Assembly: GCA_020350205.1 (NCBI GenBank)
Contig: CP070707.1
Span: 3,978,928-4,033,607, forward strand
Length of the DNA stretch: 54,680 nt
Direction of reading: 5' to 3'
Source: a bacterium
Lineage (GTDB): Bacteria; Calditrichota; Calditrichia; RBG-13-44-9
Shown here: piece by piece, positions 3,366-49,115 of the stretch
How the letters are laid out: each line of letters opens with the position of its first letter
How positions within the stretch are numbered: position 1 is the stretch's first letter
The notes under the pieces: model-generated
Seen by the model: the letters and a program-made list of their open reading frames with translations, nothing else
Database searches by the model: none
What the model was told of the DNA's origin: nothing
Made by a program: the position numbers and the translations under genes

Positions 3366-4130
3366 TTAATTTTTATTATCGATATCTTTTTGAATTCGTT
3401 GATTTAATTCCAGTAGATTCATCTTTCCTAAATCACCGCTGCCTTTCTGCCTGACCGAGATTTGCTGATTTTCCGCTTCCTGATCTCCAACAATAATCAT
3501 ATAGGGAATCTTATTTACCTCGGCTTCCCGAATTTTATATCCCACTTTTTCATTTCTACTATCGATTTCAGCTCGAAACTCCTCTTTTAGCAGCGCTTCA
3601 TAGACCATCCGGGCATACGAGTGATGGCGCTCCGAAATGGGAATAACAATAGCCTGAACCGGGGTAAGCCAAACCGGAAATGCACCCGCATAGTGTTCAA
3701 TGAGAACGCCAAAAAATCTTTCAACAGATCCCATTAAAGCACGATGAATCATGATCGGCTGATGAGGCTGACCGTCTTCTCCAATAAATTCCACCTGGAA
3801 GCGTTCCGGCAGATTAAAATCTACCTGAATGGTTGAGCATTGCCAGGAACGTCCCAGAGAGTCTTTTATTTTTATATCGATTTTAGGGCCATAGAAAACA
3901 CCCTCACCGGGATCAATACGATAGGGTAGACCACTCTTGTCCAATGCATATTTCAAAGCTTCGGTCGCTTTGTCCCAATTTTCCACCTCACCGACAAATT
4001 TCTCTGGCCGGGTGGAAAGATATATCTCATATTCGCTAAAACCAAAAGTTTTCAAAATATGCAGGGTGAAATCCAAAACCCTGGATATTTCTTCGTTCAA
4101 ATTATCGGGCGTACAAAAAAATGTGTGCAT
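3366..4130 (-). CDS. thrS: Threonyl-tRNA synthetase, C-terminal part (downstream of frameshift)
   Basis: This frame encodes the last ~250 residues of ThrRS. It contains class II motif 3 (IHRALMGSVERFFG, which includes a zinc-ligand His) and the C-terminal anticodon-binding domain (WLTPVQAIVIPIS to the end). It overlaps the N-terminal frame at 4102-4130. Translation from the Met at 4130 is probably an artefact: CTPDNLNEEI directly continues the DDAHIF of the upstream frame. The two parts together make 639 residues, the normal ThrRS length, if one base of the A run at 4115-4121 is removed. The most likely explanation is a sequencing or assembly error, because the enzyme is essential and no second copy is seen here. 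Confidence 0.9.
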   Translation of the reverse strand: MHTFFCTPDNLNEEISRVLDFTLHILKTFGFSEYEIYLSTRPEKFVGEVENWDKATEALKYALDKSGLPYRIDPGEGVFYGPKIDIKIKDSLGRSWQCSTIQVDFNLPERFQVEFIGEDGQPHQPIMIHRALMGSVERFFGVLIEHYAGAFPVWLTPVQAIVIPISERHHSYARMVYEALLKEEFRAEIDSRNEKVGYKIREAEVNKIPYMIIVGDQEAENQQISVRQKGSGDLGKMNLLELNQRIQKDIDNKN

Positions 4131-5286
4131 CGTCCTGTGTAAATCCCCGCACCCGCATTAATCCGTGAAGTACCCCGGATCTCTCAAACCGATAGACTGT
4201 CCCCAATTCAAATAACCGGATAGGTAAATCCCGGTAACTTCGGATCCCATTCTTATATATCGTGATATGGAACGGACAATTCATGGGTTTAAGCTGATAA
4301 TCTACCTCTTCTACCTCCATAGGAGAAAACATATTTTCCCGGTAAAAACCGGTATGACCGCTGGTTTTCCATAAATCAAGCTTTGCCACATGAGGCGTGT
4401 AGATCAGTTCGTAACCATGTTTGTAATGTTCTCGAATCGTAAATTCTTCCATAATTCGCCTCACCCGCGCTCCTTTAGGATGCCAGAGAATTAGACCATT
4501 TCCCACATTTTCCTGAATGCTAAATAAATCCAGCTGTCTACCTAATTTTCGGTGATCGCGTTTTTTAGCTTCTTCCAGCCGGTGAATGTGCTCTTCCAGC
4601 AGTTTACGCTTAGGATAGGAAGTGGCGTACAACCGCTGCAGCATTTTATTTTTTTCATCACCCCGCCAGTATGCACCGGCTACATTCAGCAATTTAAAAT
4701 TTTTTCCTATTTTCCCGGTCGATGGTAAATGGGGTCCACGACACAGATCGGTGAAATCCCCCTGGGAATATGTAGAGACACCATCTTCCAACTCTTGAAG
4801 AAGATCTAGTTTTAGGTCTTCGCGGCGTTTATTAAAATATTCTACTGCCTCTTTTTTATTCCACTCTTTTCTAACAATCGGATAATCTTCGTCAACAATT
4901 TTGCCCATTTCTGATTCGATTTTTTCGAAGTCTTCAGGACTGATTGCATGCTCCAGCTCAATATCGTAATAGAAACCATCGTCAATTGGAGGTCCGATGC
5001 CGAACTTGGTTTCAGGGAAAACTCTTTGAATCGCATGGGCCATCAAATGGGCTGAACTATGCCAGAAAACATCCCGTCCCTCTTCATCGTCAAATGTAAG
5101 AAAGCGTATTTCTGCATCACTCGTAATCGATTCAGGTAAGCTTCTAACTTCACCGTTTACCAAAATACCGGTAGCCTCTTTCTGAATTTTATGGTTCAGG
5201 GTTTTCAAAATATCCAATCCTGAAACACCTTTTGGAAAGGACTTGGTGCTGCCATCCGGAAATTTTATGTTGATTTTTTCGGCCAT
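4102..5286 (-). CDS. thrS: Threonyl-tRNA synthetase, N-terminal part (ends early by frameshift)
   Basis: This frame encodes the TGS domain (about 1-65), the SAD editing domain (HSSAHLMAHA, an HXXXH metal site, and FYYDIE), and the start of the class II core (GLILWHPKGARVRR; MNCPFH with the zinc-binding Cys; motif 2 RFERSGVLHG). It then leaves the family sequence at DDAHIF and stops 4 residues later. The break falls exactly at a run of seven T on the coding strand (4115-4121); six would keep the frame. ThrRS charges tRNA-Thr and edits Ser-tRNA-Thr. The gene heads the infC operon, 26 bases before infC. Confidence 0.93.
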   Translation of the reverse strand: MAEKINIKFPDGSTKSFPKGVSGLDILKTLNHKIQKEATGILVNGEVRSLPESITSDAEIRFLTFDDEEGRDVFWHSSAHLMAHAIQRVFPETKFGIGPPIDDGFYYDIELEHAISPEDFEKIESEMGKIVDEDYPIVRKEWNKKEAVEYFNKRREDLKLDLLQELEDGVSTYSQGDFTDLCRGPHLPSTGKIGKNFKLLNVAGAYWRGDEKNKMLQRLYATSYPKRKLLEEHIHRLEEAKKRDHRKLGRQLDLFSIQENVGNGLILWHPKGARVRRIMEEFTIREHYKHGYELIYTPHVAKLDLWKTSGHTGFYRENMFSPMEVEEVDYQLKPMNCPFHITIYKNGIRSYRDLPIRLFELGTVYRFERSGVLHGLMRVRGFTQDDAHIFLYAR

Positions 5287-10133: not shown

Positions 10134-11759
10134 CTAAAGTCTATATCCGATTTCTGCGAGCACTCGGTGACCCTTCATGTCATCACCCCAGTCGTATTCA
10201 TACTGTCCTGACAAGAAAAACTTTCCAATTATATCGCTGAGAAAATTTATCCTAGCCCACTGATTTATGCGCTGACTGTCGTCAGCTTTTAAGCTGTATC
10301 GATACCCTCCGTATGCCAGATCGATGTTGATCCGATTCCCAAAGTATTTTCCAACTATAAATGAGTAGTTAATCCCGTTGGTAAAAAAATTTGAAAATCC
10401 GGCAGCATTGATATACAGTCTAAAATTTGGCATCAGGAAATTAACTTTACTAAGCCCTGCGGCATATGATTTGGTAGTCTCCGTATCCGTATCCCGTTTT
10501 CGAATACCAAAATTTCCAAAAAGTCGGTAATTTTGTGGTAAAATAACGGTTACATTCCCCCTGAATCCCTGCCGGAGGGCTTCATCAAACAGGCTGTCTG
10601 CCAGTGAACGGGTTTCATAGGTCAGATAATTCTGACGATTATCGTACATGGCCCCAACCATAAGATTTTTTAAAATGTTCCATTGAGCCGAGACAAACAG
10701 ATTTGTCAAGGAGACATCTTCTCCGGCAACCTCTTTTCGCCAGGACCTATTCAAGTCCATTTCGGCACTCTGAAATATTGTCCATTTCTGAGACAAATAA
10801 AAACTATTCTGAAAATAAATAAATTCTCTGCTGACGGTACTACCATGATACTCGCCAGCTGCAGCCAGTGTCGATTCAAAACGTCCTCCGCTGTAGTCTC
10901 CGCTGACATAATTCAAATAGGCACCATACTTTTGGATAGAAGTTTGAAAACTGCTATACTGCCATTGGGGTTGTGAACCTCCGAAGATGCCGGCGTGAAA
11001 TTTGGTTGAGGCATTATATTGAAGTAACAAGCCATCAATATAACCGACCCCGCTAAATTTATTGGATATAATCCGACCCATCTGATAATTTATAGGAGCA
11101 TTTATATTGTCATAACTAAATGAAATTTCATATATCCGGTTCCGCCATTCCTGTTCGGGCGCATTACTGTTCAGGGAGCGTGCTCTCTGATTATGTCTTA
11201 ACCGTGCACGGATCCTTAAATTAAAATCCTTTCCCCATAATCGTCTGCCGCGTAAACTCAACCTCAAGGTTGGTTGACTAAAGTCTAATTGGGTTTCGTA
11301 AAGGTCTTTCCAGTAATAATATTGTAGTGAGAAGGTTCCACTAAAAGGTGACCGTTTTCTTCCGGAACTGGGGGGCGTTATCGGTTTAATATCTTTTTGA
11401 ATATCGGGTTGGTTTCCTTTAATTCCTGTGGTGACTGACACTGTATCTGGTTTTGCATTGCTTTTGTGCATATACGCTTTATCACCCGCTTGTATGGAAA
11501 GCGTTAAATTAGTGATGCTGCAGGATGCAGAATGATCGGACACATACTTAACTTCTATTTCAGCTACCGTCTGACCATTTCTCTTGATCAAGAGACGGTC
11601 GCCAACATTCAGCCCTTGCAATTTACCGGCGTCCAGATAAACATTTTCAGCTGAGATATATTTGACCTGGTACACTTTCGACTGGTTATTTTGCGCCGTT
11701 AAGAGGTTTATAAAAAAAATTATCAGTATAATATAGACAAAAATCTGAATTTTAGTCAT
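10134..11759 (-). CDS. Outer-membrane beta-barrel candidate of the cytochrome operon
   Basis: The 541-residue protein has a signal peptide (MTKIQIFVYIILIIFFINLLTAQ), then a small domain (about 25-90) with VYLDAGKLQGLNVGDRL, like the C-terminal fold seen in FlgT-type proteins. A Pro/Ser linker follows, then about 380 residues of alternating aromatic strands ending in GYRL. The start at 11759 is preferred over an upstream ATG because GGAGG lies just before it. It overlaps the 10-heme cytochrome gene by 8 bases, so the two are translationally coupled. Position suggests the porin of a porin-cytochrome conduit, but I cannot assign it to the MtrB or OmbB families. Confidence 0.75.
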   Translation of the reverse strand: MTKIQIFVYIILIIFFINLLTAQNNQSKVYQVKYISAENVYLDAGKLQGLNVGDRLLIKRNGQTVAEIEVKYVSDHSASCSITNLTLSIQAGDKAYMHKSNAKPDTVSVTTGIKGNQPDIQKDIKPITPPSSGRKRSPFSGTFSLQYYYWKDLYETQLDFSQPTLRLSLRGRRLWGKDFNLRIRARLRHNQRARSLNSNAPEQEWRNRIYEISFSYDNINAPINYQMGRIISNKFSGVGYIDGLLLQYNASTKFHAGIFGGSQPQWQYSSFQTSIQKYGAYLNYVSGDYSGGRFESTLAAAGEYHGSTVSREFIYFQNSFYLSQKWTIFQSAEMDLNRSWRKEVAGEDVSLTNLFVSAQWNILKNLMVGAMYDNRQNYLTYETRSLADSLFDEALRQGFRGNVTVILPQNYRLFGNFGIRKRDTDTETTKSYAAGLSKVNFLMPNFRLYINAAGFSNFFTNGINYSFIVGKYFGNRINIDLAYGGYRYSLKADDSQRINQWARINFLSDIIGKFFLSGQYEYDWGDDMKGHRVLAEIGYRL

Positions 11760-12552
11760 TGTTTCCTCCTTCTGCAGAACCGGTGGGGTGGCAATTATAA
11801 CAGGCATTACTTTCATAGATGTAACCGTTTACTTCCCGGTGCTCATTATCCATCCTGTCCTTGCGGTGTTCGTGGCAATTCAAGCAACTGAAAATCTGGA
11901 AATTCCCTGGTGAAACATGACAATCGCTGCACTCATTCCATTCCCCTGAATGAGTTCCTGAAAATATCGGGAAAATGCCATCGTGTTCAGTGAATTGGGC
12001 AGGTTTCCAGCCGTAAAAACTATGGCAGATTTCACAGGTCTTTGGAAATCCGGAACTTTGATGGTTCGGACTTTGGACACTATTATAATCTTGAATATGA
12101 CATATGTAACATTCCGATTTAAGGGGGGAAAATTCTCCCTCAATGTCGCTGTAATGACAGGCACCGCAATCGAGTCGGGCGTGTTTCCCCAAAAGCGGGA
12201 AGGTTGTATTGGCATGGGCTACTGAGGGGTCGATAACCGTCCAGCTTATCGGTGTGTGACAGGATTCACACCATGGACCCAGCCGGGCCTGATGAATATC
12301 TGTATGGCATGCCCTGCAGTCCGAGCTTTGATTATAAAAATTTTTTATGTCATGACAGATATTGCAGTTAAATCCCCTATGTTTACCAGTTAATGGGAAA
12401 TCTGTTTTAGAATGGTCAAAATTAATTTGTAACCAATCCTGCGCATTATGACAGGTTTGACAATCCATATCCATTTGCTCATGTGGCATATCCTGACTGA
12501 ATAAGATAGTTTGACCAGTCAAAAGTGACAGAAAAATAAGTGTTCTCATCAT
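11752..12552 (-). CDS. Decaheme c-type cytochrome, exported
   Basis: The 266-residue protein has a signal peptide (about 1-19) and ten CXXCH heme sites: CQTCH, CNICH, CRACH, CESCH, CGACH, CYICH, CEICH, CSDCH, CLNCH and CYNCH. Many His residues lie in FDHSKT and GKHRGF type segments that probably supply distal ligands, as in cytochrome c3/c7-like proteins. Both ends align with the ends of the neighbouring 22-heme protein (MPHE near the start, EW.ECSDCH and ACYNCHPTG near the end), so the two are paralogues. It lies 8 bases from the 22-heme gene and overlaps the barrel gene. It probably acts in the periplasm or at the cell surface. Confidence 0.92.
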   Translation of the reverse strand: MMRTLIFLSLLTGQTILFSQDMPHEQMDMDCQTCHNAQDWLQINFDHSKTDFPLTGKHRGFNCNICHDIKNFYNQSSDCRACHTDIHQARLGPWCESCHTPISWTVIDPSVAHANTTFPLLGKHARLDCGACHYSDIEGEFSPLKSECYICHIQDYNSVQSPNHQSSGFPKTCEICHSFYGWKPAQFTEHDGIFPIFSGTHSGEWNECSDCHVSPGNFQIFSCLNCHEHRKDRMDNEHREVNGYIYESNACYNCHPTGSAEGGNND

Positions 12553-12560
12553 GATAATTC

Positions 12561-14255
12561 CTATTTTTCCCCGGTAGGATGACAGTTATAACATGCCTGA
12601 CTGTTATATTGATAACCTTGAACCCCCTGGTGTTTACCGGCGAGATCCACCGGATCATTATGTTCATGGCAAAGTATGCATTCAAAGGTCAGATAATTAT
12701 TAGGATCAATGTGGCAATCGGTACAGAGATTCCATTCTCCCTGATGCCTTCCGGAATAGATGGGAAAGTATTGAGTGTCATGATTCCAGTTGGTTTGATT
12801 CCAGTTTGTAGTGTTATGGCAGGACTCACACTCTACAGGAAATCCGGCTGCAGCATGATTGGGATTTTGGGTATTCTGATAGTCATCTTGATGACAGGAA
12901 TAACAGTCCGTGGGTGTATTGGTGTAACCTTGTGAATGACAGTCGATGCAGTTTAAACTGGCGTGGGCGCCGGTAAGAGGGAAATTTGTGTTGGAATGGT
13001 CAAATGTTGCTGGAGACCAGGCCACGGTGCTATGACAGATGGTGCAATCATGGCTGAAACTGTTCTGCACATGATTTGGGTCCAAGGTGGTATTAAAATC
13101 ATTCTGGTGGCAAGAGAAACAATCTGTCGGTGTGTTCACATATCCGTTCTCATGACAATCTATACATTGAAGACTCAGATGAGCACCTGTTAACGGGAAT
13201 GCGGTATTGGCATGATTAAAGGTCGCCGGAGACCAGGTAAGATTATTGTGGCAAAATAGACAATCCCGGTCAAAATTATTCACAACATGATTTGGATCGG
13301 AAACAGCTGTGTAGTCCTTTTCATGACAGCCATAGCATTCTCTCGGCAAACCACTGGTCTGATTGTTTATATGACAAGAATTACAGGTCAGAGTTTGATG
13401 CACCCCGGTCAAGGCAAAACCGGAGGCCTCGATATGGTCAAAAATAGCATCACCCCAGCGAGTGGTGTTATGGCACAGTTCACAGGTGGTTAAGAATCCA
13501 AATATGATATGGCTGGGATTGGTAGCTTGTTGATAATCCTGAGAATGGCAGGCATAACACTCCAAGGGTGTACCCTCATAAACCTGAGAATGACAATCGA
13601 TGCATTCAATCCGTTTATGGGCTCCCTCTAATTTAAAATTCAATGAATGCTGGTAAATGGCTTTCTGCCAGCTAGATGACTGAATGGGATGGCATTCTTC
13701 ACATTGAGGGGCGAATGCAGCTGCACGGTGATCAGGATTTTTGCTGGCCAGATAAATATCCATATGGCAACCGTCGCATTCGAGAGGCAGGCGAGCGATA
13801 TCTTTTTTTTCAGGACTGTAATGACAGGCTTCACAATCGACAACGGCGTGAACGCCGACAAGAGGAAAGTTGGTGCGCTGGTGTTCTTCCAGCAATTCAC
13901 GTCGGTTCTCCCAGCTGAGGGGAGTATGGCAATTATCACAGCGCAGACCCAATTCCCCCTGATGAATATCGGCATGACAATCTACACAGGAAGTGCCGAC
14001 ATGGAAAAATTTCAGGCTCTCGTGGCAGATTCGGCATTGAACATCTTTATGACCACCCCAAAGGGGAAATCCCGTCTTCGAATGGTCAAAAGAAATGTTT
14101 TTTTGATTAACCGTCCAGTTTGTGGTAGAGTGACACAATGCACAATCAAATGATATATTCTCATGGGGCATTTCTTTTTCCTGCTGGAACGCAGGAGAAT
14201 AAACCAGAAAAATTATTATCCCTATGGCGATGAAAACTCTAGTTAATTTTTGCAT
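12561..14255 (-). CDS. 22-heme c-type cytochrome with tandem triheme modules
   Basis: The protein (564 residues from the ATG at 14255) has a signal peptide and 22 CXXCH motifs. From about residue 174 the sequence is built of modules 72-74 residues long. Each starts with a PNH or PDH and holds three CXXCH motifs, a W..A.F.H segment and an FPLTGAH segment. Two central modules (12864-13295 in DNA) are nearly identical. The ends match the 10-heme paralogue, so the size difference (12 hemes) equals four modules. An AGGAG site lies 10 bases before the ATG; GTG 14258 and TTG 14261 are alternatives. The start overlaps the end of the 20-heme gene, which suggests coupling. Confidence 0.92.
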   Translation of the reverse strand: MQKLTRVFIAIGIIIFLVYSPAFQQEKEMPHENISFDCALCHSTTNWTVNQKNISFDHSKTGFPLWGGHKDVQCRICHESLKFFHVGTSCVDCHADIHQGELGLRCDNCHTPLSWENRRELLEEHQRTNFPLVGVHAVVDCEACHYSPEKKDIARLPLECDGCHMDIYLASKNPDHRAAAFAPQCEECHPIQSSSWQKAIYQHSLNFKLEGAHKRIECIDCHSQVYEGTPLECYACHSQDYQQATNPSHIIFGFLTTCELCHNTTRWGDAIFDHIEASGFALTGVHQTLTCNSCHINNQTSGLPRECYGCHEKDYTAVSDPNHVVNNFDRDCLFCHNNLTWSPATFNHANTAFPLTGAHLSLQCIDCHENGYVNTPTDCFSCHQNDFNTTLDPNHVQNSFSHDCTICHSTVAWSPATFDHSNTNFPLTGAHASLNCIDCHSQGYTNTPTDCYSCHQDDYQNTQNPNHAAAGFPVECESCHNTTNWNQTNWNHDTQYFPIYSGRHQGEWNLCTDCHIDPNNYLTFECILCHEHNDPVDLAGKHQGVQGYQYNSQACYNCHPTGEK

Positions 14256-15915
14256 CACCAATTTTCTCCTGTTTTAAGGATTTACCATGACAATCAATGC
14301 AATTTGATGGTATTGGTTTATAACGGACAAAGGTTATATTCGATTTGGTTTCGGTTGGATGACACTTGTTACAGCTGATTCTCTCATGGGCACCTTCGAG
14401 TTTAAATAGAGCATGGATATCATGATTAAATCTTTCGGCTTTCCAATCCCGGGGAGTATGACATTTCTCACAGGTTTGCGATTTCTTATTTCCGCCTGAG
14501 CTGGTTGCAAACTGGTTATAATGAGGATCCTGGTGGCAATTCTCACAATTTTTTGCAGTGTGAGTAAACAGTATGAAATTTTCAGAAGATTTCTTATGAC
14601 AGGATTGGCAGGGAGCTTTGGCATGTTTGAGTTCGAGCGGAAAGCCGGTTCTAGAGTGATCGAATGTAATAACCTGCCAGCTCTGAACATCGTGACAACC
14701 GCTACAACCCACTTCATCCATATATTTGGTAACCGACCCTTTATGAGGATCAGAATGACAGTCGATACAATTTGTAGAAGGAAAACTGAATTTCACTAAT
14801 TCGAAGGAAGTTCCCTCTTTGAGTTTATAATGGCACCGATTACAGGGAGTAGCCAGATGTCCACCTTCAAGTTTAAAAGAGATCTGGTTATGTTTTTCGA
14901 TGGTAAATAAAACAGGTTTGTATCCATATACAGTATGGCATTCCTGGCAGTCTCCCTGTGTTGGTCGATGAGTAAATTGTCCTTTGTGGTAATCATCGTG
15001 GCAGTCTAAACAACGGTTAAACCTAAGACTCGCCAATGATTTTCCCGGCAAATGGCATTTTTTACAGGTGACCTCGCGGTGTTTACCGTTCAAAGGATAC
15101 CGGGTCATTGAATGATCGAAACTGTCACTTTCATAATTTGTCCAACCGGTAGTATTGTGGCATTTGGCGCAATTCTGACCGAATTTATTCTTATGAATAT
15201 CATTATGACACCCGCTGCAGTTATTATATGTGAGTCCCGTCATTTTTAAATATGTTTTGTCATTATCAGCCTGGCCATCGGTAAGAGGAAAATGACATTT
15301 TACACACGAGACCAGGGTATGTTTACCGGTCAGTGGATACCTGGTATTACTGTGTGTGAAAAATTCTGCGGGCTTCCATTTCTGAAAAGTGTGACAGTTC
15401 TGGCAGAACAGTGAAAGTTGACCCCGGTGTTCATCAAAATGACAAGTATTACAGCGTGAAACCAGCCCAAGGAAAGTTTTATCGGGGTTTTTTTTTGCCC
15501 GTGTGATTGTCTCTATTTGAATGATATGTTTTGCTTGATGACAGTCTCTGCATTTTAGTTGAGCATGTTTTCCCTCGAGAACAAAGCCGGTCAGCTGATG
15601 ATTAAAGTTTTCCTGACCATTTTCCCAATAGATTAGGTCAAAATCCCTTCCGTGATGTTCCACATGGCACTTTTCGCACTCCCTGTAGGCTGCATTTGAA
15701 TGCAAACCTATATTCTCATCGATTCTTTCTTTAAGTACACGATGACACTTAAGACAATTATCGGCCGCTATTTTCTGTCCTATTCCATGACATTCGGAAC
15801 AATTTTTTAAACCCTCCAGTTGTGCATGCGACTGATGCAAATCACCCGGTGAAAGTTGACTGAATCCAGTCGACCAGAAAGATAGAAGAGCGAACAGACC
15901 GTATCTTAAATCCAT
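14239..15915 (-). CDS. 20-heme c-type cytochrome, first gene of the cytochrome operon
   Basis: The 558-residue protein has a signal peptide (LFALLSFWSTGFSQ) and 20 CXXCH motifs spread over its length, with repeated RYPLTGKH, RYPLNGKH and FDHSRTGFPLELKH segments that supply further His residues. This is the pattern of large cytochrome c3/c7-like multiheme chains. It heads a run of three cytochrome genes with overlapping or nearly touching ends. No clear Shine-Dalgarno is present before the ATG, but a near-consensus sigma-54 promoter lies about 90 bases upstream. The role is probably electron storage or long-range transfer across the periplasm or outside the cell; the substrate is unknown. Confidence 0.92.
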   Translation of the reverse strand: MDLRYGLFALLSFWSTGFSQLSPGDLHQSHAQLEGLKNCSECHGIGQKIAADNCLKCHRVLKERIDENIGLHSNAAYRECEKCHVEHHGRDFDLIYWENGQENFNHQLTGFVLEGKHAQLKCRDCHQAKHIIQIETITRAKKNPDKTFLGLVSRCNTCHFDEHRGQLSLFCQNCHTFQKWKPAEFFTHSNTRYPLTGKHTLVSCVKCHFPLTDGQADNDKTYLKMTGLTYNNCSGCHNDIHKNKFGQNCAKCHNTTGWTNYESDSFDHSMTRYPLNGKHREVTCKKCHLPGKSLASLRFNRCLDCHDDYHKGQFTHRPTQGDCQECHTVYGYKPVLFTIEKHNQISFKLEGGHLATPCNRCHYKLKEGTSFELVKFSFPSTNCIDCHSDPHKGSVTKYMDEVGCSGCHDVQSWQVITFDHSRTGFPLELKHAKAPCQSCHKKSSENFILFTHTAKNCENCHQDPHYNQFATSSGGNKKSQTCEKCHTPRDWKAERFNHDIHALFKLEGAHERISCNKCHPTETKSNITFVRYKPIPSNCIDCHGKSLKQEKIGDAKIN

Positions 15916-16004
15916 ACGTGAAAATCAAATTCAGTTAGAAAATATATTTCATGGATAATTTATTCAATTTTATAATCAGGAGCATTACAAAAAACAAATC
16001 AATC

Positions 16005-16021
16005 TGCAAATATATTGCCAG
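16005..16021 (-). promoter_or_regulatory. Sigma-54 promoter upstream of the cytochrome operon
   Basis: The minus strand reads CTGGCAATATATTTGCA. It has the -24 TGGCA and -12 TTGCA elements with the required GG-N10-GC spacing. The start point would be near 15994, leaving about 80 bases of leader before the 20-heme gene. A nearly identical element is found at 53926-53942. Confidence 0.75.
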
Positions 16022-16144
16022 CTAAATATTATATTAAATTTATTAATGTGGAATTATAATTGGTAAATTGCGAAAAATATTTACACAATTATGTCTAAAA
16101 TTGTGTGCTATTGCGAGAATTGTATCTTATAAATTATTCAATGT

Positions 16145-17044
16145 TCAAAAAATCCAGAAATATCCTACATAGACTGCCACCAGGATGTGAATTAGCATGA
16201 TGATATACATGATTATTGCGAACGGTTTGTGAATAACATGCCAGTAGTGAAAAAGTTGGTGGATGGCGTTCCACATGGAGATTCTTCGCTGCAGCATTGC
16301 CTTGCGTTTAATTGTTATTAACATCTGACTGACTTCCTGAAATGACAGGTTTAGTTTTTTTATCAAATGTTTTCTGAGTCGATAAGAACGGATAGGCTTG
16401 AGAGCATCATTAAAAATCATGGATAAAAATGCAAATATCAATCCTTTTTCAGGCCGAATGGGAGGGAAAATAGAAGCTTCGATGGATTCTAGTTGCTTTG
16501 GTTCTATTCTAAATTTATTGTAGATTTCCTGTGCCAGATTTTGATTCATCTGTTCCAGTTCTTTAAAATCGATCTCCTGCCCCGCAATCGTTCTGGGAAT
16601 CTGTTTATAAAGATATCTTCCTAAAATACCACTTAGAGCCACCGCAATCATCGACCAGAAGCTAACGGCTATTAATCCCTGCACTTTAAAAGATGAATGC
16701 AATATGATCAGGAGCGGTCCAATTATTCCAAAATAGATGTGCACCCGGAGCCAGCTGCTTAAATACCCCAGATTCTGTAGCCTCCGGATTCTTTTGCGAA
16801 TCGAATAGAGTAACATGAAGATCATCATAGCGCTGCCAATAACACCGAAAGCATGACCGATCATTCCTGCCGGACGAAGACTACGATAATCAGGATGATG
16901 GGGTTGCTCCCGGAGGGATGTTGAATAAAAATCAGTACCGGTGATCAGAAAATAGACGTAGATGCTGAAAGAGACTAGATACAGAATAATCAAAATCACA
17001 TCGAGTAAACTGGTTTTGCGAGACTCCGTGGTAGATGATTTCAT
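16145..17044 (-). CDS. Polytopic membrane protein, probable b-type heme redox protein
   Basis: The 299-residue protein has about five membrane segments: two near the N-terminus (residues ~14-35 and ~63-85), two in the middle (~97-118 and ~122-145) and one at the C-terminal end (~270-295). A cytoplasmic-like helical insert lies at about 150-250. His residues sit at helix positions suited to heme (RVHIYFG, ILHSS, HVIHKPF, LIHILVA), as in cytochrome b561 or ferric-reductase-like proteins. I cannot name the family. It is on the same strand just upstream of the cytochrome operon (229-base gap), so it is a candidate quinol-facing partner. Confidence 0.65.
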   Translation of the reverse strand: MKSSTTESRKTSLLDVILIILYLVSFSIYVYFLITGTDFYSTSLREQPHHPDYRSLRPAGMIGHAFGVIGSAMMIFMLLYSIRKRIRRLQNLGYLSSWLRVHIYFGIIGPLLIILHSSFKVQGLIAVSFWSMIAVALSGILGRYLYKQIPRTIAGQEIDFKELEQMNQNLAQEIYNKFRIEPKQLESIEASIFPPIRPEKGLIFAFLSMIFNDALKPIRSYRLRKHLIKKLNLSFQEVSQMLITIKRKAMLQRRISMWNAIHQLFHYWHVIHKPFAIIMYIIMLIHILVAVYVGYFWIF

Positions 17045-39738: not shown

Positions 39739-40851
39739 TCAATGGTCTAATTCAAATCCACATAAAAATTGCCAGCCTTGGGCGGTAAAATTTTGCAGGG
39801 CAAACTCGTCTTTGAAGTAACCACCTCGAATAAAATAGAGCAGATTTTTTGTGAGGGGTCTTTCAATTTTAATGTCAATTCGATTTTCGGAATCAAATGG
39901 TAGATATAAAGCTAGAATATCACCATCATTCTGGAGCTTCAAATTATTCCAGTAATAATCAATGACGCAAAGCAAGGTAAAATTTTTCAGGAAAACTTTC
40001 CCGAAAAGTATTCGAAAATATTGTTCAAAAGAGGGATCCATGGTAATTTTTGACCAATGTCTTAAAAAACTGTATCGGAAAGTCAGATACAAAATTTTAT
40101 TGGATTCAAAATAGAACTCCGGGCCAAATCGAAATCCGTGGTTATCATTCTGATTTTGTTGTAATGTCATGATAGAATTACTCTCCACGGAAAATTTTTC
40201 CAGGTATAAACCGGCACCTAGATTCAGACGGTTTGAATGTATGTGTGATATATATAATTTCGTTTTTAGGGCATCCAATTTTTGTCTGGGAGTATCAGAA
40301 ATATCCTGATAATAATAAGCAGGGTAAAAAAATAAACGATAATGCTGAGATAGAAAACAGGAAAATATCCCGCTTAATTCGAACAGGTCCAGGGAGATAT
40401 CACGCGGGGTATTTATATAAAAATAACGTCGTATGTCCAGGCCCATGCCCATATCCAGGCCCGATTTTTGATAAAGATATTGTCCTTTGGTAATCATTTT
40501 CATGCTGGTATATCCAACTATATCCTGATAGAATTCAGGTTTAAGTTGTAGGGATAACCACCACAAATTCGAGCGAGTTTGATTTTTAAACTTAAGATAC
40601 CCATTTAGTCTGCTAAGGAAATACAGGGATCTGTCGGATTCGAATAGGCTTCTCTGGTAAAATCCGGTTTCTGCAGAAATCCGCCATCTGGTCTGACCTC
40701 GAGCCTCTAATGAAATAAAAATCAGCAGGATCAAAAAACCGAACAAAATGGATAAACTTATAGGAAAACGAGTCCTGTTTATGTGGTCACCATACAGTTC
40801 AGGACAATGTTTATTTCCCTGCATATGTAAATTTCCTGACCGTGTGAACAT
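39739..40851 (-). CDS. Barrel-like exported protein of the kinase-regulator operon
   Basis: The 370-residue protein has a long polar N-terminus (about 28 residues), then a hydrophobic signal or anchor (SILFGFLILLIFISLEARGQ), then strand-rich sequence with many Tyr, Phe and Asn (SNLWWLSLQLKPEFYQDIVG) ending GFELDH. It resembles an outer-membrane barrel, but the family is unknown. The real start may lie inside, since the leader before the signal is unusually long. It is the last of four genes with the coiled-coil protein 7 bases upstream. Confidence 0.65.
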   Translation of the reverse strand: MFTRSGNLHMQGNKHCPELYGDHINRTRFPISLSILFGFLILLIFISLEARGQTRWRISAETGFYQRSLFESDRSLYFLSRLNGYLKFKNQTRSNLWWLSLQLKPEFYQDIVGYTSMKMITKGQYLYQKSGLDMGMGLDIRRYFYINTPRDISLDLFELSGIFSCFLSQHYRLFFYPAYYYQDISDTPRQKLDALKTKLYISHIHSNRLNLGAGLYLEKFSVESNSIMTLQQNQNDNHGFRFGPEFYFESNKILYLTFRYSFLRHWSKITMDPSFEQYFRILFGKVFLKNFTLLCVIDYYWNNLKLQNDGDILALYLPFDSENRIDIKIERPLTKNLLYFIRGGYFKDEFALQNFTAQGWQFLCGFELDH

Positions 40852-40858
40852 ATGAAGA

Positions 40859-41809
40859 TTATGGTCGAATTTTTTGATTCAGAAAATCTAAATAACCCTC
40901 TAAAATATCCTCTGCACGTAGAAGTATTTTCTGATATTCATCCAGGGTCAAGGTTACTTTTCCGGAATCCACCGGGGAGGTCCAGTTAAATTTTTGTTCA
41001 GGAAAATATTCCGGCTGGAATTGTTCCATTATGTTGATTAAAGATTCAGCCTGGGGGAGATTGCTAAAAATATCTGTTTGATTGATTCCACTAAATGTGA
41101 CAGTCCTTTCTGAGAAGGATTGAGAGCTAAGTATTAAGGGTCTGTTATCATCCATGTCTTCCAGAAAGCGGTTTCCTCTTTCCTTTAAATATATGAGTTC
41201 TTCGATTTCTTTTCGCATATTTTGCATGTTATGAAGTGTTACTATAATTTCGGACCGGGCATTATTTAAATAATCTCTGTAAATTGCTACCTCCAGTGAG
41301 TCTTTACTGTTATGCAGATCAATCTCAACAATTTTATGAGGGTCGAATGAAAATGATTTAAATTTTGGCAGCATTAACAGTCTTTTCTCGGAAAGCACAT
41401 ATATTTGCTTCTGAATTTCTTCGCGTTTCTTTATATCAGGGGTGTTTGACAAGGTTTGGTTTAATGAATCAATTCCTCTGCTATATGATTTTGCCAGATC
41501 ACTTTTAATCGCTGAGAGTTCTCCCTGTAGCTCATTCAGCTCCATTTTCTGCAGTTCTATCGATTCGGATAGCTGCTTTAATTTTTGATACCATTCTGCC
41601 TGTCGGGTTTGATTATTTTCTGCAGCAGATATATCTTTTTCAAGAAGATTCGTCCAATAATCCAGAGTATGTTTAAGAGAATCCAGACGGTGTTCTGCTT
41701 GCATCATGTCTTGAATACAGGTTTCCAGTTGCATTTCTAACATAGAAGTGTTTTGAGAAAGTCCGGTATAATGCAAAAGTATAAACAACAGAAGTAAAAA
41801 TTGTTTCAT
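40859..41809 (-). CDS. Exported coiled-coil protein of the kinase-regulator operon
   Basis: The 316-residue protein has a signal peptide (MKQFLLLLFILLHYTGLSQ) followed by long heptad-like stretches (about 20-125 and 175-220) rich in Glu, Leu, Lys and Gln, with a less regular C-terminal part. No known domain is recognised. Its ATG overlaps the stop of the sigma-54 regulator gene (ATGA), so it is translated in step with the regulator. It may be the extracytoplasmic partner or target of the two-component system. Confidence 0.7.
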   Translation of the reverse strand: MKQFLLLLFILLHYTGLSQNTSMLEMQLETCIQDMMQAEHRLDSLKHTLDYWTNLLEKDISAAENNQTRQAEWYQKLKQLSESIELQKMELNELQGELSAIKSDLAKSYSRGIDSLNQTLSNTPDIKKREEIQKQIYVLSEKRLLMLPKFKSFSFDPHKIVEIDLHNSKDSLEVAIYRDYLNNARSEIIVTLHNMQNMRKEIEELIYLKERGNRFLEDMDDNRPLILSSQSFSERTVTFSGINQTDIFSNLPQAESLINIMEQFQPEYFPEQKFNWTSPVDSGKVTLTLDEYQKILLRAEDILEGYLDFLNQKIRP

Positions 41810-43179
41810 TTGATCAATCCAAATTTTTGTAATTTATAATAGAGTGTACTGGTACGGACACCTAAAATTTTCGCAGCCCGGTTTTTAACTCCATCCGCTT
41901 CTTTCAAGGCTTTAATGATCAAATTTCTTTCGTAGTCTTGCAGTGCTTTTTCCAGAGTTTCACTGAGGACGATTTCCGTTTCATCTCCTGTATATCCTAA
42001 CTGTTGTGCGGTAAGGGCGGGGGCTATTTCCTGAGTAGAAGAAATCACCACAAGTCTCTCAATCACATTCTCAAGTTCCCGGATATTTCCTGGCCAGTGA
42101 TATGTTTTTAATAAATTGAGACTTTTTTCGGAAAGGACTCTTTTTTCATGCGCTCGGTTATGCATAATTTTTTGCAAGAAATGTTCAGCCAGCAGTGGGA
42201 TATCCTCTCGGCGATCCCGGAGAGGCGGGATTTTTATAGGAATGACACTCAGGCGGTAAAATAAATCCTCCCTAAAGCGGCCATCATGCAGTGCCTCCCG
42301 CAGATTTTGGTTGGTAGCTGAAATGATCCGCACATCCACCTTGAGTGTCTGTTCGCCGCCCACCCGCTCAAATTCTTGCTCCTGGAGCACCCGCAAAAGT
42401 TTGATCTGCATATTCGCTGAAATATCCCCGATCTCATCCAGAAATAGAGTTCCCCCATCTGCAAGTTCAAAACGTCCCCGTTTTTGTCTGATTGCGCCAG
42501 TAAAAGAACCTTTTTCATGCCCGAATAGTTCACTTTCCAGTAGATTTTCATTTAATGCCCCACAGTTTACCCGGATAAAGGGTTGATCCTTCCGGTCACT
42601 TTTATTGTGGATTGCGCGCGCCACCAGTTCTTTACCAGTTCCACTCTCGCCTTCAATCAGAATACTGCTGTCCTGTTTTGCGACTTTATCAATAATATTG
42701 AAAATTTCCTGCATTGCCGAAGACTGACCAATTATATTTTCATATTGATCCTCAAAATGTTCTTGAAAAATCAGGTTTTCTGCCCGAAGACGTTCCAGTT
42801 TATCCTGTTGTTTAATTTTATCAACAATTTTGTCGACTCTGACTCTTAACTCTTCAGGAGAAAACGGTTTGGTTAAAAAATCGATTGCTCCCTCACGCAT
42901 TGCCTTGACAGCAACATCAATGGTACCGTAAGCAGAAATCATCAGGACCTCTAATTGAGGCTTCATCTTTTTAATTGAATTCAGGAGTGAAAGCCCGTCA
43001 ATGGGTTCCATTTTTAAGTCAGTAATAACCAAATCAGGTTCATTCTTTTGAATAAATTGCAGCGCTTCTTCTGGATGGCTGAAATCTGTTACCAGATATC
43101 CCTCGCGCCTTAAACTTTCCATAATACCTAAACGCATGGTCTCGTTATCTTCCACCACCAGAATGTGAATAGTTTTCAT
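41806..43179 (-). CDS. Sigma-54-dependent response regulator (NtrC family), second copy
   Basis: The 457-residue protein has a receiver domain with Asp54 (VITDLKMEPIDG), an AAA+ domain with GESGTGKE and GGTLFLDEIG, and a Fis-type helix-turn-helix (KNRAAKILGVRTSTLYYKL). The sigma-54 contact loop reads GSFTGA rather than the usual GAFTGA, a conservative change. It lies 13 bases downstream of its kinase gene and overlaps the coiled-coil gene. Likely targets include the sigma-54-like elements next to the flanking envelope operons. Confidence 0.95.
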   Translation of the reverse strand: MKTIHILVVEDNETMRLGIMESLRREGYLVTDFSHPEEALQFIQKNEPDLVITDLKMEPIDGLSLLNSIKKMKPQLEVLMISAYGTIDVAVKAMREGAIDFLTKPFSPEELRVRVDKIVDKIKQQDKLERLRAENLIFQEHFEDQYENIIGQSSAMQEIFNIIDKVAKQDSSILIEGESGTGKELVARAIHNKSDRKDQPFIRVNCGALNENLLESELFGHEKGSFTGAIRQKRGRFELADGGTLFLDEIGDISANMQIKLLRVLQEQEFERVGGEQTLKVDVRIISATNQNLREALHDGRFREDLFYRLSVIPIKIPPLRDRREDIPLLAEHFLQKIMHNRAHEKRVLSEKSLNLLKTYHWPGNIRELENVIERLVVISSTQEIAPALTAQQLGYTGDETEIVLSETLEKALQDYERNLIIKALKEADGVKNRAAKILGVRTSTLYYKLQKFGLIK

Positions 43180-44756: not shown

Positions 44757-45323
44757 TTACGAAATCCATACCATCTCCATCTGATCTATTTCCCATCGCT
44801 CTCTTTTGGATAAGATGATCATATATCCGAATCCTGCCAGATAATGTATGTTCAATGAAATGTAGATGAGGGCCTGGTTTCCGGTTTCGTTAAATCCTAC
44901 TCGGGAGAAACCAACCAATCCGGGAGAATTTGGATAGGTCTGATAAAATCCTTCCCATCCCCCTAATAGTTCCCAACGTTTCCAGGAAATAAAATCCAAA
45001 TTCAGGGGCCCGTCAATCGTAATTTTAAATGGATAGCAAACCTGATTACAGAAATTATAATTGTCTATTGTAGCCTGCTGGAGAGTTGGAAATTGTAAGG
45101 AATCCTGAGGTTGAAAAAACCAGGTTTCGGTAGAATCCAGAAAGACCATCCATTCCCTTCCTGGCACTAATAACAGAGAATCTATAACAATGCTATATAT
45201 CAGAAACTCGTTGTTATCTGTATTCAATGAATTCGGTTGTGTAGGATTAATGTTTCCTGAACAGGCAGCAATGATAACCACCATGAAAAAAAGGTGAAAA
45301 AAAATAATTTTAGTGAATCCCAT
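44757..45323 (-). CDS. Lipoprotein of unknown function
   Basis: The 188-residue protein has a lipoprotein signal (MVVIIAACSG). The mature sequence contains several aromatic-rich segments (DSTETWFFQPQDSLQF, WKRWELLGGWEGFYQTYP) and appears all-beta. I do not recognise a family. It is the last gene of a four-gene minus-strand group, 20 bases after a barrel gene. Confidence 0.7.
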   Translation of the reverse strand: MGFTKIIFFHLFFMVVIIAACSGNINPTQPNSLNTDNNEFLIYSIVIDSLLLVPGREWMVFLDSTETWFFQPQDSLQFPTLQQATIDNYNFCNQVCYPFKITIDGPLNLDFISWKRWELLGGWEGFYQTYPNSPGLVGFSRVGFNETGNQALIYISLNIHYLAGFGYMIILSKRERWEIDQMEMVWIS

Positions 45324-45343: not shown

Positions 45344-47134
45344 TTACAGTGAAGTTCTAAAAACCAGCCACCACTGTGCAATCCTGAAGGTTTCTTCAAA
45401 TTCCGGATTGATTAAGAGCTGAAACTGAAACCGGGGTGAGATATCTACCTCAATCTTGCTGATGAGATCGGTAAAATCCTCTGAAATTTTCTGGGGAGGA
45501 TTTGTATATCTTTCCGCAAAATTATTCTCAGTTTTCAGGCTATCATTTTCCAAACGTTGACGGGTATGAAAATAGGCGACGGTGACCTCCTCGATTTCCC
45601 AGTTCCTGAGAATTTTATTGATACCCACGGTAAAAGACCATTGCCGGTTTAATTGGAAATCGAATATAAGCGGAATCTGGATTGACCATTCTTTCGAATT
45701 GTATTTCCAATCCAGAATTTTGTCTTCATACAGGTAATGGTTCCAATCATACGGGGAATTACTCTGGTGGTCAGAAAATAGGGTAACGATAACCGGTTCA
45801 GTCGATTGTATTATCGAGGTTTTATGGGCATAATAAAATCCAAGCGATAAATTGCTTGTTCGATTTAATTTAAAACGAAAATTCAACAAAGCCTGATGCC
45901 AGTCAATCTGTTTATCTCCAGAGCCCGTCCGGTGATCATGCAATCCGGATTGATAACGGCTTTCATAAATGAGGGTATCGCCGCGCCAGCTTGATTCATA
46001 AAATGAGGTATCCCTGATCTGCGATTGATTGGTGGGGTCAATTTCGGAGGATGTATAACGATAATAAAAATTTATTTGATTCTGATCCTTTAAAATTTTT
46101 GAAAGATTAACACTACCGTACCAATTCTTTCCATCCTGATCCCAGTTTTGCCTGGTCTGAGAATCATTGAAACTATTTCCGTTATTTTCAGGGACAATCC
46201 GGTCCTGATAACTATACTCAGAAAAATAACCTGTTTGGTAAAGTTGATCTGCATGGCCATTCAGATATCCCAATTTTGACCCTATGGCAAAATTTGAGTG
46301 AACTTGATAATCCATACCAACCGCCAGATCGAGGTGGTGATAGTTTTGTTCCCGCTGAATTTCGTTTAATGATCGCCAGTCAGAATCGTTGGTACTGCCA
46401 TATTCATCACTTTGCAGGTTCTGATATATTCCATCTCTGGATTGTAACACACCATTCATAGAAACACCCAGAGTGAGTTTTGTATTTATTCTGCTACCCA
46501 AGAAAGCTGAAATAAGATGTCCTTGATGGTTCATCTCATCCTTTCCGGAATATCGATCCTGGACAGGATAATTAAATCCACCTACCTGATTACCAAATAC
46601 ATCATAACCATAACGATTGTAAAAAATCCAGGATGGCATGCTGTAAAAATTTTCTTGTTTGTAAATCAGCTGATAGGTCCCACCCAAAAATAATTTTTGA
46701 TTTTTGGGATCTTTCAGATAGGTTAGGAATCCTAATGAAAATACGGGTTCCGGATCTCTGCGAGTGGTATTATACCATCTTGGATCAATATAAATTGGGG
46801 CATGATATTGGGACATATCCCATAATGGATGAATATAATAATCATCCGCAATAGTCGCAGATGTACGGTCGCCTCGAAAATCCAGATGAATAAGATTACC
46901 TTCAGTTAATACAGGTAATTTTGCTGGATTCAAATAGAGATTTAAAAATGGGTCTTCAACTAAACCCACCGAAACCTCGCGATAGCGGTGAAGTCCAAAT
47001 GTATTCAGATAATAACTGGTAAAGTAAAGATCTGATTGCTCAAAACTTTGTTCAGTTACTCTCTCCCCCCAATATTGTGAATACGCAGGCAAAATCATAC
47101 AAATCCAGGCTAGAAAGCAGAAATATTTTTTCAT
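45344..47134 (-). CDS. Outer-membrane beta-barrel candidate, unknown function
   Basis: The 596-residue protein has a signal peptide (FLAWICMILPAYSQ). The mature part has an early LNLYLNPAKLPVL segment, reminiscent of the NPA motifs of FadL- or PorV-like barrels, then many amphipathic strands rich in Tyr, Trp and Asn and a C-terminal WWLVFRTSL. No function can be assigned. It follows the serpin gene by 27 bases and precedes a lipoprotein gene. Confidence 0.72.
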   Translation of the reverse strand: MKKYFCFLAWICMILPAYSQYWGERVTEQSFEQSDLYFTSYYLNTFGLHRYREVSVGLVEDPFLNLYLNPAKLPVLTEGNLIHLDFRGDRTSATIADDYYIHPLWDMSQYHAPIYIDPRWYNTTRRDPEPVFSLGFLTYLKDPKNQKLFLGGTYQLIYKQENFYSMPSWIFYNRYGYDVFGNQVGGFNYPVQDRYSGKDEMNHQGHLISAFLGSRINTKLTLGVSMNGVLQSRDGIYQNLQSDEYGSTNDSDWRSLNEIQREQNYHHLDLAVGMDYQVHSNFAIGSKLGYLNGHADQLYQTGYFSEYSYQDRIVPENNGNSFNDSQTRQNWDQDGKNWYGSVNLSKILKDQNQINFYYRYTSSEIDPTNQSQIRDTSFYESSWRGDTLIYESRYQSGLHDHRTGSGDKQIDWHQALLNFRFKLNRTSNLSLGFYYAHKTSIIQSTEPVIVTLFSDHQSNSPYDWNHYLYEDKILDWKYNSKEWSIQIPLIFDFQLNRQWSFTVGINKILRNWEIEEVTVAYFHTRQRLENDSLKTENNFAERYTNPPQKISEDFTDLISKIEVDISPRFQFQLLINPEFEETFRIAQWWLVFRTSL

Positions 47135-47161: not shown

Positions 47162-48406
47162 TTAATTTTCCCACTGTGGTTCAGTGATCTTTCCAACAAA
47201 AAGAACTGTCTGTGAGGGTTTATCATAAAGAACAAAAAGGAAAGGTCGGACTACCCGCATAATAAATTTGTCGCTACCCGCTGAGGTCAGGGTTATCGTA
47301 ACAGAGGTTGCGGCTGCCGCTTCTGTACCTTCTTCGTCAACCTGAATAAAGCTTTTATGCATAACCAGACTGATGAATGCGTTTCCCAGTCCCTCATAGA
47401 GATTTGAAAAATTCGCATTTATTGGGTCAAACGCGACACCCATGCCCAGTTTTCCCAGTATATCATTCAGCTTTTTTTTGTAGGCAAACTTGAATTTTGG
47501 AAATTCCAAAACCCCCTGGCAGGTCTGGAAACTCCCCAGCCAGTTTATGAGCTGCTCATGTGTGATATTAGAAATGAGATTTTGCAAAGAAACCTCTTTC
47601 TTTGGAAGAATAATGGCCATCCGGAAATCTCCGTTACCATATGGTAACTCGACAGCCTGAATATCATTATCTTCCAGATAAAAGAAATTTCTTTCCTGAT
47701 GCATTAATTGACAGGTAATGGTATGTCCGGCCGGGTGATAGAACTGATCTTCCTGGGTCAATTGCGGATCAAACTGGTAGGTCCATATACCCTTAAAATA
47801 AATGGCATTAATCAAAAACATGATGTCATTCGGATCAATCTGGTTGATCATTTTCTTAATTTTACCATGGGTCTGATCGAAAACCCACTGATTGATTTTT
47901 AGTATCGAGCCTGGATCCGAGAAATTCAAACTTTCAACCCTGGCATTGAAATAATATTTGTTGATATCGATAAACTCCTGTTTGAAAGAGAGATCGTCGC
48001 GGTACCAAATTGAATTTGCAATTTTAAAGGCCACTTTAGGGTCCAGCTGGGAAAGGAGAGTAATCAAGCTTAAATAGGATTGGTTGATTTCCTGCTGGGT
48101 AAGTCCATATAATTCCAATGTTTTCTCCATCGCCAGACGGGTTTCCCCGGCGGCTCCGTTGAGTGTCATACCCAGCGCCATAGAGATACTTAACGGGGAG
48201 ATGAACACATTGGAATCTGGTGAAGATTGGGACAATTCTTTAAATATTTTAATACCGAACCGGTTATCCGAGGAAACCAGCTTTGTTTCTTCGGTATTTA
48301 ACTGGCGCCTCTGGCTGAAAGGAATAGGATCGGTTATTCGTGTACAGGCACCGGCCATAAGGGCGAAAGCGATAAAAATGAAATGTTTTTGAATGAAATA
48401 GGTCAT
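47162..48406 (-). CDS. Serpin-family protease inhibitor, lipoprotein
   Basis: The 414-residue protein starts with a lipoprotein signal (ALMAGAC) and is then a full-length serpin. Typical segments are SPLSISMALGMTLNGAAGET, LINAIYFKGIW and RPFLFVLYD. The hinge EEGTEAAAATS is the small-residue type of inhibitory serpins. Counting from Gly P15, the P1 residue would be near a Thr-Ser pair, suggesting a target with small or polar preference (subtilisin or elastase-like); this is uncertain. The ATG at 48406 is chosen over TTG 48421 because GGAGG lies 8 bases before it. A cell-surface or periplasmic location is inferred. Confidence 0.92.
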   Translation of the reverse strand: MTYFIQKHFIFIAFALMAGACTRITDPIPFSQRRQLNTEETKLVSSDNRFGIKIFKELSQSSPDSNVFISPLSISMALGMTLNGAAGETRLAMEKTLELYGLTQQEINQSYLSLITLLSQLDPKVAFKIANSIWYRDDLSFKQEFIDINKYYFNARVESLNFSDPGSILKINQWVFDQTHGKIKKMINQIDPNDIMFLINAIYFKGIWTYQFDPQLTQEDQFYHPAGHTITCQLMHQERNFFYLEDNDIQAVELPYGNGDFRMAIILPKKEVSLQNLISNITHEQLINWLGSFQTCQGVLEFPKFKFAYKKKLNDILGKLGMGVAFDPINANFSNLYEGLGNAFISLVMHKSFIQVDEEGTEAAAATSVTITLTSAGSDKFIMRVVRPFLFVLYDKPSQTVLFVGKITEPQWEN

Positions 48407-48433: not shown

Positions 48434-48865
48434 TCAGGGAATACGGCTGGTTTGCCATTCCCCGTATCCCACCAATTGACTGTGCGGGTCGAGTTCCTTA
48501 TAAGTCCCCTGTAGACTGTCTGCTAAAATCTTCCCTCTCATTTGAAAACTCTCTTTACCTTGATGATCTGTCAGATATAGACTGAACCACAGTGAATCTA
48601 TCCCGTTGTGAGTACCGCCCATCACCAAAAATGATGTAAAGACTGAGTCGACAGAAAGATGTGCTGATCCAGTAACGGTAGGAGAATTTTCGAATTCACC
48701 CTCGATAAGGGTAAGGAAAAAAGAATGACTGTTTAATTGACCTTTCCAGCTTCCTTCAACCAGAACGGACAACGGGGAATTCGGAAGATTATTTTTACAA
48801 CCCAAAAGATAGCATGCAATAGGAACACAAATATACAGGAAACTTCTCAGAATATTGAGTTTCAT
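48434..48865 (-). CDS. Small lipoprotein of unknown function
   Basis: The 143-residue protein has a lipoprotein signal (ACYLLGC). The mature part is short and strand-rich (GSWKGQLNSHSFFLTLIEG, GSAHLSVDSVFTS), resembling a lipocalin-like small beta domain, but I make no firm family call. It heads the operon with the serpin and barrel genes, and a sigma-54-like element lies about 90 bases upstream. Confidence 0.72.
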   Translation of the reverse strand: MKLNILRSFLYICVPIACYLLGCKNNLPNSPLSVLVEGSWKGQLNSHSFFLTLIEGEFENSPTVTGSAHLSVDSVFTSFLVMGGTHNGIDSLWFSLYLTDHQGKESFQMRGKILADSLQGTYKELDPHSQLVGYGEWQTSRIP

Positions 48866-48955
48866 TCATTCTCCAGGGGTTATTCCATTTTATTTTTAGA
48901 CATCATTTTCCAGCGAAAATATTTTAAATTCATGGCCCTCTTATTCCATATTAAT

Positions 48956-48970
48956 TCAAATGACATGCCA
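48956..48970 (-). promoter_or_regulatory. Sigma-54-like element upstream of the serpin-barrel operon
   Basis: The minus strand reads TGGCATGTCATTTGA: -24 TGGCATG and -12 TTGA at correct spacing, with A in place of the consensus C, the same deviation as at 39548-39564. The gene start is about 90 bases downstream. Confidence 0.45.
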
Positions 48971-49073: not shown

Positions 49074-49115
49074 AAAATATTATCAGAATTCTGATACTCT
49101 ATCAAAATTCTGATA
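49074..49115 (-). terminator. Terminator of the metK/scaffold unit, or twin palindromic operator
   Basis: ATCAGAATTCTGAT (49082-49095) is a perfect palindrome, and ATCAAAATTCTGAT (49101-49114) repeats it with one change, 19 bases apart. Together they also pair into one long stem with a 5-base loop, followed on the minus strand by AATATTTTTCC. Position downstream of the scaffold gene favours a terminator. Confidence 0.55.

Follow-up and report, generated by a model that had tools for sequence, protein, structure and literature searches.

The serpin encoded on the minus strand of the window (the whole stretch of DNA that we analysed, 54,680 nt at positions 3,978,928 to 4,033,607 of contig CP070707.1, from a bacterium of the class Calditrichia) is likely a lipid-anchored suicide inhibitor that is switched on by the adjoining two-component system through a tandem operator and a sigma-54 promoter, and it is probably a member of the regulon of this NtrC-type system. 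The computed features behind this proposal are the identity of the serpin, its hinge and conserved Cys, the gene cassette around it, an operator and a promoter-like element shared among loci, and the presence of the operator before some serpins outside the cassette. In the order in which the minus strand is read, the features of the locus are:

49081..49115, minus strand, tandem operator, TATCAGAATTTTGATA (49115-49100) plus TATCAGAATTCTGATA (49096-49081), 19-bp repeat
48955..48970, minus strand, sigma-54-like -24/-12 element TGGCATGTCATTTGAA, 113 bp downstream of the operator, with the first gene starting about 90-105 nt further on
48434..48865, minus strand, small lipoprotein, 143 aa, first gene of the run
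47162..48406, minus strand, serpin lipoprotein, 414 aa, Pfam Serpin, hinge at 358-368, Leu373 before Thr374-Ser375
45344..47134, minus strand, outer-membrane beta barrel, 596 aa, cassette barrel 1
44757..45323, minus strand, small lipoprotein, 188 aa
43193..44662, minus strand, histidine kinase with a conserved region between membrane segments
41806..43179, minus strand, NtrC-type response regulator by its Pfam domains (receiver, sigma-54 activator, Fis HTH)
40859..41809, minus strand, coiled-coil protein with a signal-peptide-like start, cassette family
39739..40851, minus strand, second outer-membrane barrel, 370 aa, 16 predicted strands, mean pLDDT 82.2

The serpin reading frame opens with an ATG at 48406, with GGAGG immediately 5' of it, and its stop codon ends at 47162. 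The 414-aa product matches Pfam Serpin (PF00079) over positions 2-370 of the 370-position profile, with 380 bits against a cut-off of 27 (E 1.7e-113), and its best match by sequence among solved structures is miropin (5ncs, 8.8e-72). The serpin that an earlier, sequence-only reading had claimed at 47162-48406 is real and correctly placed, and its strand, absent from that reading, is minus. Bacterial serpins had also been called uncommon there, which holds for the window's own genome, a single contig of 4.06 Mb with this serpin only, but not for the class, in which 21 of 40 sampled genomes (G000 to G039) carry one. The signal-peptide-like start of the protein ends in a lipobox-like ALMAGAC with Cys21, and the column of this Cys is invariant across 23 aligned serpins, which fits a lipoprotein and supports the lipid anchor proposed earlier. 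A strict PROSITE-like lipobox was present in 58 of 124 serpins, some of whose ORFs are truncated or over-extended; in many of the listed serpins lacking it, a Cys follows a hydrophobic stretch.

The hinge EEGTEAAAATS, previously read as inhibitory, is intact at residues 358-368, and its columns are nearly invariant in an alignment of 124 serpins, taken from the collected loci and chosen by a loose hinge pattern. This reactive-loop alignment, a check suggested with the original claim, also shows that the residue before the Thr-Ser pair is variable: its column (Leu373 here, P2 by hinge count) has an entropy of 3.67 bits and ranks second in variability among the 399 alignment columns, the usual Thr and Ser being present in 82 and 90 of the 124 serpins, respectively. 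Because this column is hypervariable, as expected of a target-selecting P1, Leu373 is probably the working P1, with Thr374-Ser375 as P1'-P2'. A Leu at P1 suggests a chymotrypsin-, elastase- or subtilisin-like target. Miropin, from Tannerella forsythia, is alike in fold family by sequence, in the hinge start EEGTEAAA and in the Thr-Ser after the variable residue, but has Lys at the position aligned with Leu373. Within the genus, the serpin of locus L031, 62% identical overall to that of the window, retains the loop core SVTITLTSAG. The idea that tandem duplicates diversify their loops beyond chance is not supported, 28 of 29 adjacent pairs differing at the variable residue as compared with 91% of random pairs; three adjacent pairs of 83-87% identity do differ there.

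The serpin gene belongs to a run of eight minus-strand genes, from 48865 down to 39739 and in the order listed above, neighbouring genes being at most about 95 bp apart or overlapping slightly. As the sequence-only reading had it, the gene lies between small lipoproteins and a barrel, with the lipoprotein at 48434-48865 upstream, and the barrel at 45344-47134 and then the lipoprotein at 44757-45323 downstream. Likewise, the term sigma-54-associated is justified by the receiver/sigma-54/HTH regulator at 41806-43179 and by a sigma-54 gene in the same genome. The 143-aa lipoprotein has a homologue in serpin locus L101, from a record labelled Deferribacteres, and the predicted structure of barrel 1 is beta-rich and barrel-like (mean pLDDT 63.9). 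Neither Pfam nor NCBIfam has a family that either barrel, the coiled coil or either small lipoprotein matches above cut-off; sporadic low-scoring matches came from individual sequences in the barrel alignments, to Phenol_MetA_deg for barrel 2 (1/8) and to OMP_b-brl (3/7) and NtrZ (2/7) for barrel 1. A reading of the region as an RNA switch was discarded, as the sole hit of Rfam and ARAGORN was a distant tRNA (Val).

Upstream of the first gene, the operator consists of two 16-bp palindromes placed 19 bp start to start. NtrC-type activators typically have tandem dyads upstream of a sigma-54 element, and such dyads are present here. Defining the exact operator as TCAN6TGA-Nk-TCAN6TGA, where k is the spacer, we found in 111 loci (1.6 Mb) 17 operators with k=7, six with k=8 and three with k=9, each other spacer from 0 to 24 giving none or one; mononucleotide shuffles yielded none at k=7. 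Among 64 dyads of the same shape, TCA came first with 17 occurrences, followed by an A/T-only dyad with 7, and the median was 0. The window's own genome has 33 single palindromes with up to two mismatches, counting both strands, and 11 matches to the reversed control, but the pair in the window is the only one side by side; one other sequence in this genome fits the loose pattern exactly but lacks the conserved inner bases.

The sigma-54-like element that follows the operator has the GG of the -24 box, with the GC of the -12 box replaced by GA (TTTGAA, not TTGC). It scores 11.9 with an approximate matrix, by which 99% of random 300-bp stretches score below 10.6. In the window alone, scans for canonical sigma-54 and sigma-70 promoters gave no excess over chance, with 14 matches to the sigma-54 pattern for 10.9 expected, and it was the comparison across genomes that revealed the element. 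By the relaxed pattern [CT]GG[CT]A[CT]-N5-TTG, which was derived after seeing these same loci, an element occurs within 330 bp on the gene's side of 16 of the 17 k=7 operators and on the opposite side of none of the 17, for a background of 0.017 per 330 bp. Four of the six k=8 operators also have one, and by the same pattern the operators of L043, L108 and L130 have none.

The palindromes keep their 19- or 20-bp repeat before differing genes, including serpins that lie outside the cassette. Among the latter, the operator is directly upstream of the serpin in L042, L045 and L049 (a contig of 7.5 kb), together with the sigma-54-like element, and in L130 without it; in the genomes of L042 and L045, the serpin-free barrel loci L077 and L078 have an operator of their own. 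Additionally, L101 and L102 have the operator at a serpin near a regulator. The exact operator was nevertheless found within 450 bp upstream of only nine of 119 serpin genes, later members of tandem arrays included, indicating that many serpins are controlled otherwise. In genus g8 (L036, L072), the operators of the cassette and of a separate serpin seem, by eye, to have drifted from TGA towards CGA half-sites; this would fit co-evolution with the regulator, although at three mismatches the L036 site does not outperform shuffles, 7 of 20 of which did as well.

A stricter operator pattern applied to the 40 class genomes recovered 24 sites in 19 genomes, as compared with none for the reversed pattern, and the sigma-54-like element follows 22 of them (14 of 15 at known loci and eight of nine new ones). 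Fifteen operators are at cassettes or serpins already collected and nine are elsewhere. In G004, the operator directly follows nifU at the end of a contig, a position matching that in the window; others precede lipoproteins and a barrel (G021:C14 and G031), a lipoprotein (G006) and, in G028, a protein with a type IX-like tail plus lipoproteins at one site and a lipoprotein at another. Operators in G028:C128 and G021:C1 precede two large proteins that share an LTD-like start (Pfam was run on the latter). The site in G010:C134, a 31-bp, GC-richer palindrome with no sigma-54-like element, was set aside as probably due to chance. In the collected loci L218 (operator at 4747) and L220 (operator at 4982), a protein of about 1,540 aa is encoded after the operator and the sigma-54-like element; the L220 copy combines LTD, CotH kinase and beta-helix with a type IX-like sorting tail.

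We also compared the occurrence of operator and regulator in the class. An orthologue of the regulator was detected in 23 of the 40 genomes, with one match per genome at E 1e-190, and the operator is present in 16 of these 23 genomes (G010 included) versus three of the 17 others (Fisher p 0.0014, relatedness ignored); the remaining seven genomes with the regulator have no exact operator. For the serpins found in G005 and G007 (family f2), there is neither a regulator orthologue nor an operator, 253 bp upstream being covered in G007.

Much of the gene run recurs with one or more serpins in L037, L039, L040, L041, L107 and L031, with another barrel family replacing barrel 1 in L041 and a contig end in L031; some of the recurring stretches end before the last genes. 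The cassette also occurs with lipoproteins and no serpin (L072, L074, L075 and L077), showing that a slot which otherwise carries small lipoproteins takes serpins as optional cargo, and that the system has another job. Barrel 1 was detected in 19 of the 40 class genomes (weakly in G038) and together with a serpin in 15 (Fisher p 0.0018, relatedness ignored), and in eight of these 15 the two genes are within 2.6 kb on one strand. For a wider view we used named serpin loci, the best 80 of at least 567 confirmed stretches, to which selection the following counts refer; five duplicates (L085, L087, L091, L089 and L098) were removed before the barrel, clustering and operator counts. A barrel-1 homologue was found by profile in 11 of the 75 non-duplicate loci, in all 11 on the same strand as the serpin and in nine within 600 bp, seven of the 11 being labelled (Neo)marinimicrobiota and one Ignavibacteriales. 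Most named serpin loci have no cassette. What had been read as an inhibitory-type, lipid-anchored serpin in a sigma-54-associated envelope operon is supported by these data, but the conserved linkage to barrel and lipoproteins that went with this reading, recovered in the eight class genomes and 11 named loci, is not obligatory.

A regulator homologue of at least 400 bits occurs in nine of the 80 named loci, where paralogues are possible. All ORFs were also clustered, in a set of which 15 loci had been added on account of the barrel or to supply missing flanks. The families found next to the largest numbers of serpin loci were barrel 1 (17), the regulator (17) and the kinase (11), the next being an ECF-sigma-like family (10, on mixed strands). 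A second arrangement, in L046, L092, L105, L106 and L161, has a coiled coil and a barrel near the serpin and a regulator; profile comparisons indicate that they are distant relatives of the coiled coil (97.3%) and of the second barrel (95.3%) of the window. In family f5 (L050, L076, L077, L078 and L082), the cassette or serpin is divergent from another operon, which we take, from the sequence starts, to read tig-clpP-clpX-lon.

We propose that the histidine kinase would sense a condition of the envelope, protease attack being the leading guess for the signal, and would phosphorylate the neighbouring NtrC-type regulator. The latter would then bind the two tandem palindromes, 113 bp upstream of the putative sigma-54 promoter, and turn on the genes for the lipoprotein, serpin, barrel and lipoprotein, and probably also those for the kinase, regulator, coiled coil and second barrel. 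Produced on demand and held at the outer membrane by its lipid anchor, the serpin would act as a suicide inhibitor, so that an attacking protease cleaving the exposed loop at or next to Leu373 would become trapped; the residue presumed to select the target would be free to vary among serpins. We infer the binding of the regulator to the operator, inhibition, surface exposure, the inducing signal and the extent of the operon from the biology of serpins and NtrC-type regulators and from SerRK of B. breve. In that bacterium, the serpin is reported to be controlled by the adjacent SerRK two-component system, through which proteases induce it, with autoregulation (PMC7822027, PMC8012564). The window likewise has a serpin beside a two-component system but in another phylum and envelope, and with an NtrC-type sigma-54 regulator, a tandem operator, outer-membrane barrels and lipoproteins. 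To our knowledge, SerR of B. breve is not a sigma-54 activator. Another partial parallel is QseE/QseG/QseF of E. coli, in which a kinase, a lipoprotein and a regulator of sigma-54 promoters share one operon and the lipoprotein is described as stimulating the kinase (PMC6075780), although that operon has no serpin or barrel. That the serpin protects the surface from proteases, as first suggested, is plausible; nothing in the sequence analysis of the locus points to a secretion system, the other object of protection then considered.

The variety of cargo suggests a possible alternative, which we rate next after this mechanism and which is compatible with it: the barrel, coiled coil and second barrel might export lipoproteins for surface display, the serpin being interchangeable cargo and protease defence incidental. 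Numerous small lipoproteins, belonging to different families, occupy the slot, and the operator precedes lipoproteins with no serpin in the stretch read in L217, L219, L221 and L224, L221 having two ORFs that match the lipobox pattern and three more with a Cys after a hydrophobic stretch. Slam/DUF560 proteins offer a precedent, as these outer-membrane barrels are described in published passages as often encoded next to lipoprotein genes (PMC5449769, PMC8406197). A distant homologue family of the second barrel, matching it by profile at 95.3%, hits the Pfam family SlipAM (PF04575) in two of seven members, but marginally, the best with 22.0 bits at a cut-off of 22, whereas the barrel families of the window itself do not hit it (0/8 members for barrel 2 and 0/7 for barrel 1) and no TPR domain was seen. 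Additionally, Foldseek and VIA-align matched both barrels to generic porins, FadL-like barrels, transporters and receptors, and Slam is absent among the matches listed.

It is rather unlikely, in our view, that the serpin has a housekeeping role, guarding against the cell's own secreted proteases and not foreign ones. There would be proteases to guard against, since subtilase matches were found in about nine ORFs of the genome (10 stretches) and Caldithrix abyssi is reported, in the passage available, to have more than 150 peptidase genes (PMC5317091), and the loop core shared with L031 would allow for a fixed target within the genus; a hypervariable probable P1, however, fits varied targets better than one fixed self-target. 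We regard as improbable that the tandem palindromes bind another regulator or act as a terminator, the two-component system being merely nearby. The stretch 49115-49081 is also listed in a scan as a terminator-like stem followed by T, and a terminator role could account for part of its conservation; furthermore, the link to the regulator is one of co-occurrence, and three of 17 genomes have the operator with no detected regulator orthologue. Two of these three genomes, however, are 72-76% complete, and in the third, G031, the operator is followed at 3.7 kb by a kinase belonging to the cassette family. The 19- or 20-bp repeat of the palindromes before different genes, non-cassette serpins among them, also counts against this reading, as does their arrangement, usual for NtrC-type activators, and we favour control of the serpin by the adjoining two-component system.

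Two elements of this proposal are already known, namely membrane-anchored prokaryotic serpins (PMC8233489) and, in B. breve, a serpin under two-component control. In the passages of Spence et al. (PMC8233489), some prokaryotic serpins are membrane anchored, the hinge motif is given as ExGTEAAAA and the functions of prokaryotic serpins are called enigmatic; regulation and a cassette do not appear in these passages, nor the word 'operon' in the text. The target proteases of bacterial serpins have been described, in a published passage, as 'elusive'. The sigma-54/envelope-lipoprotein form of serpin control looks new: no match listed, by its title or the start of its abstract, deals with control of a bacterial serpin by RpoN/sigma54, and a literature of partial coverage, with few subscription papers, contained no NtrC/sigma-54 regulon that joins outer-membrane barrels, lipoproteins and serpins and spans two or more phyla. 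As the regulator, operator and promoter-like element can be named, control of a bacterial serpin becomes directly testable, and a culturable relative would allow the serpin to be turned on or off and its target to be sought. Serpins tied to an outer-membrane lipoprotein cassette are present in more than one phylum. A bolder idea, which we hold only tentatively and think more doubtful than the mechanism above, is that a sigma-54 two-component regulon of several candidate phyla (Calditrichota, Neomarinimicrobiota and KSB1-type) is a response to protease attack on the outer membrane, which would sense proteolytic damage and send changeable surface lipoproteins, including serpins of switchable specificity, out via its own barrels.

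Elsewhere in the window, two overlapping minus-strand ORFs in different frames at 3366-5286 (4102-5286 and 3366-4130), which we take to be a threonyl-tRNA synthetase, are split by a frameshift, either real or an assembly error. At 10134-17044, also on the minus strand, CXXCH-rich proteins resembling multihaem cytochromes adjoin a protein that appears, by eye, to be barrel-like.
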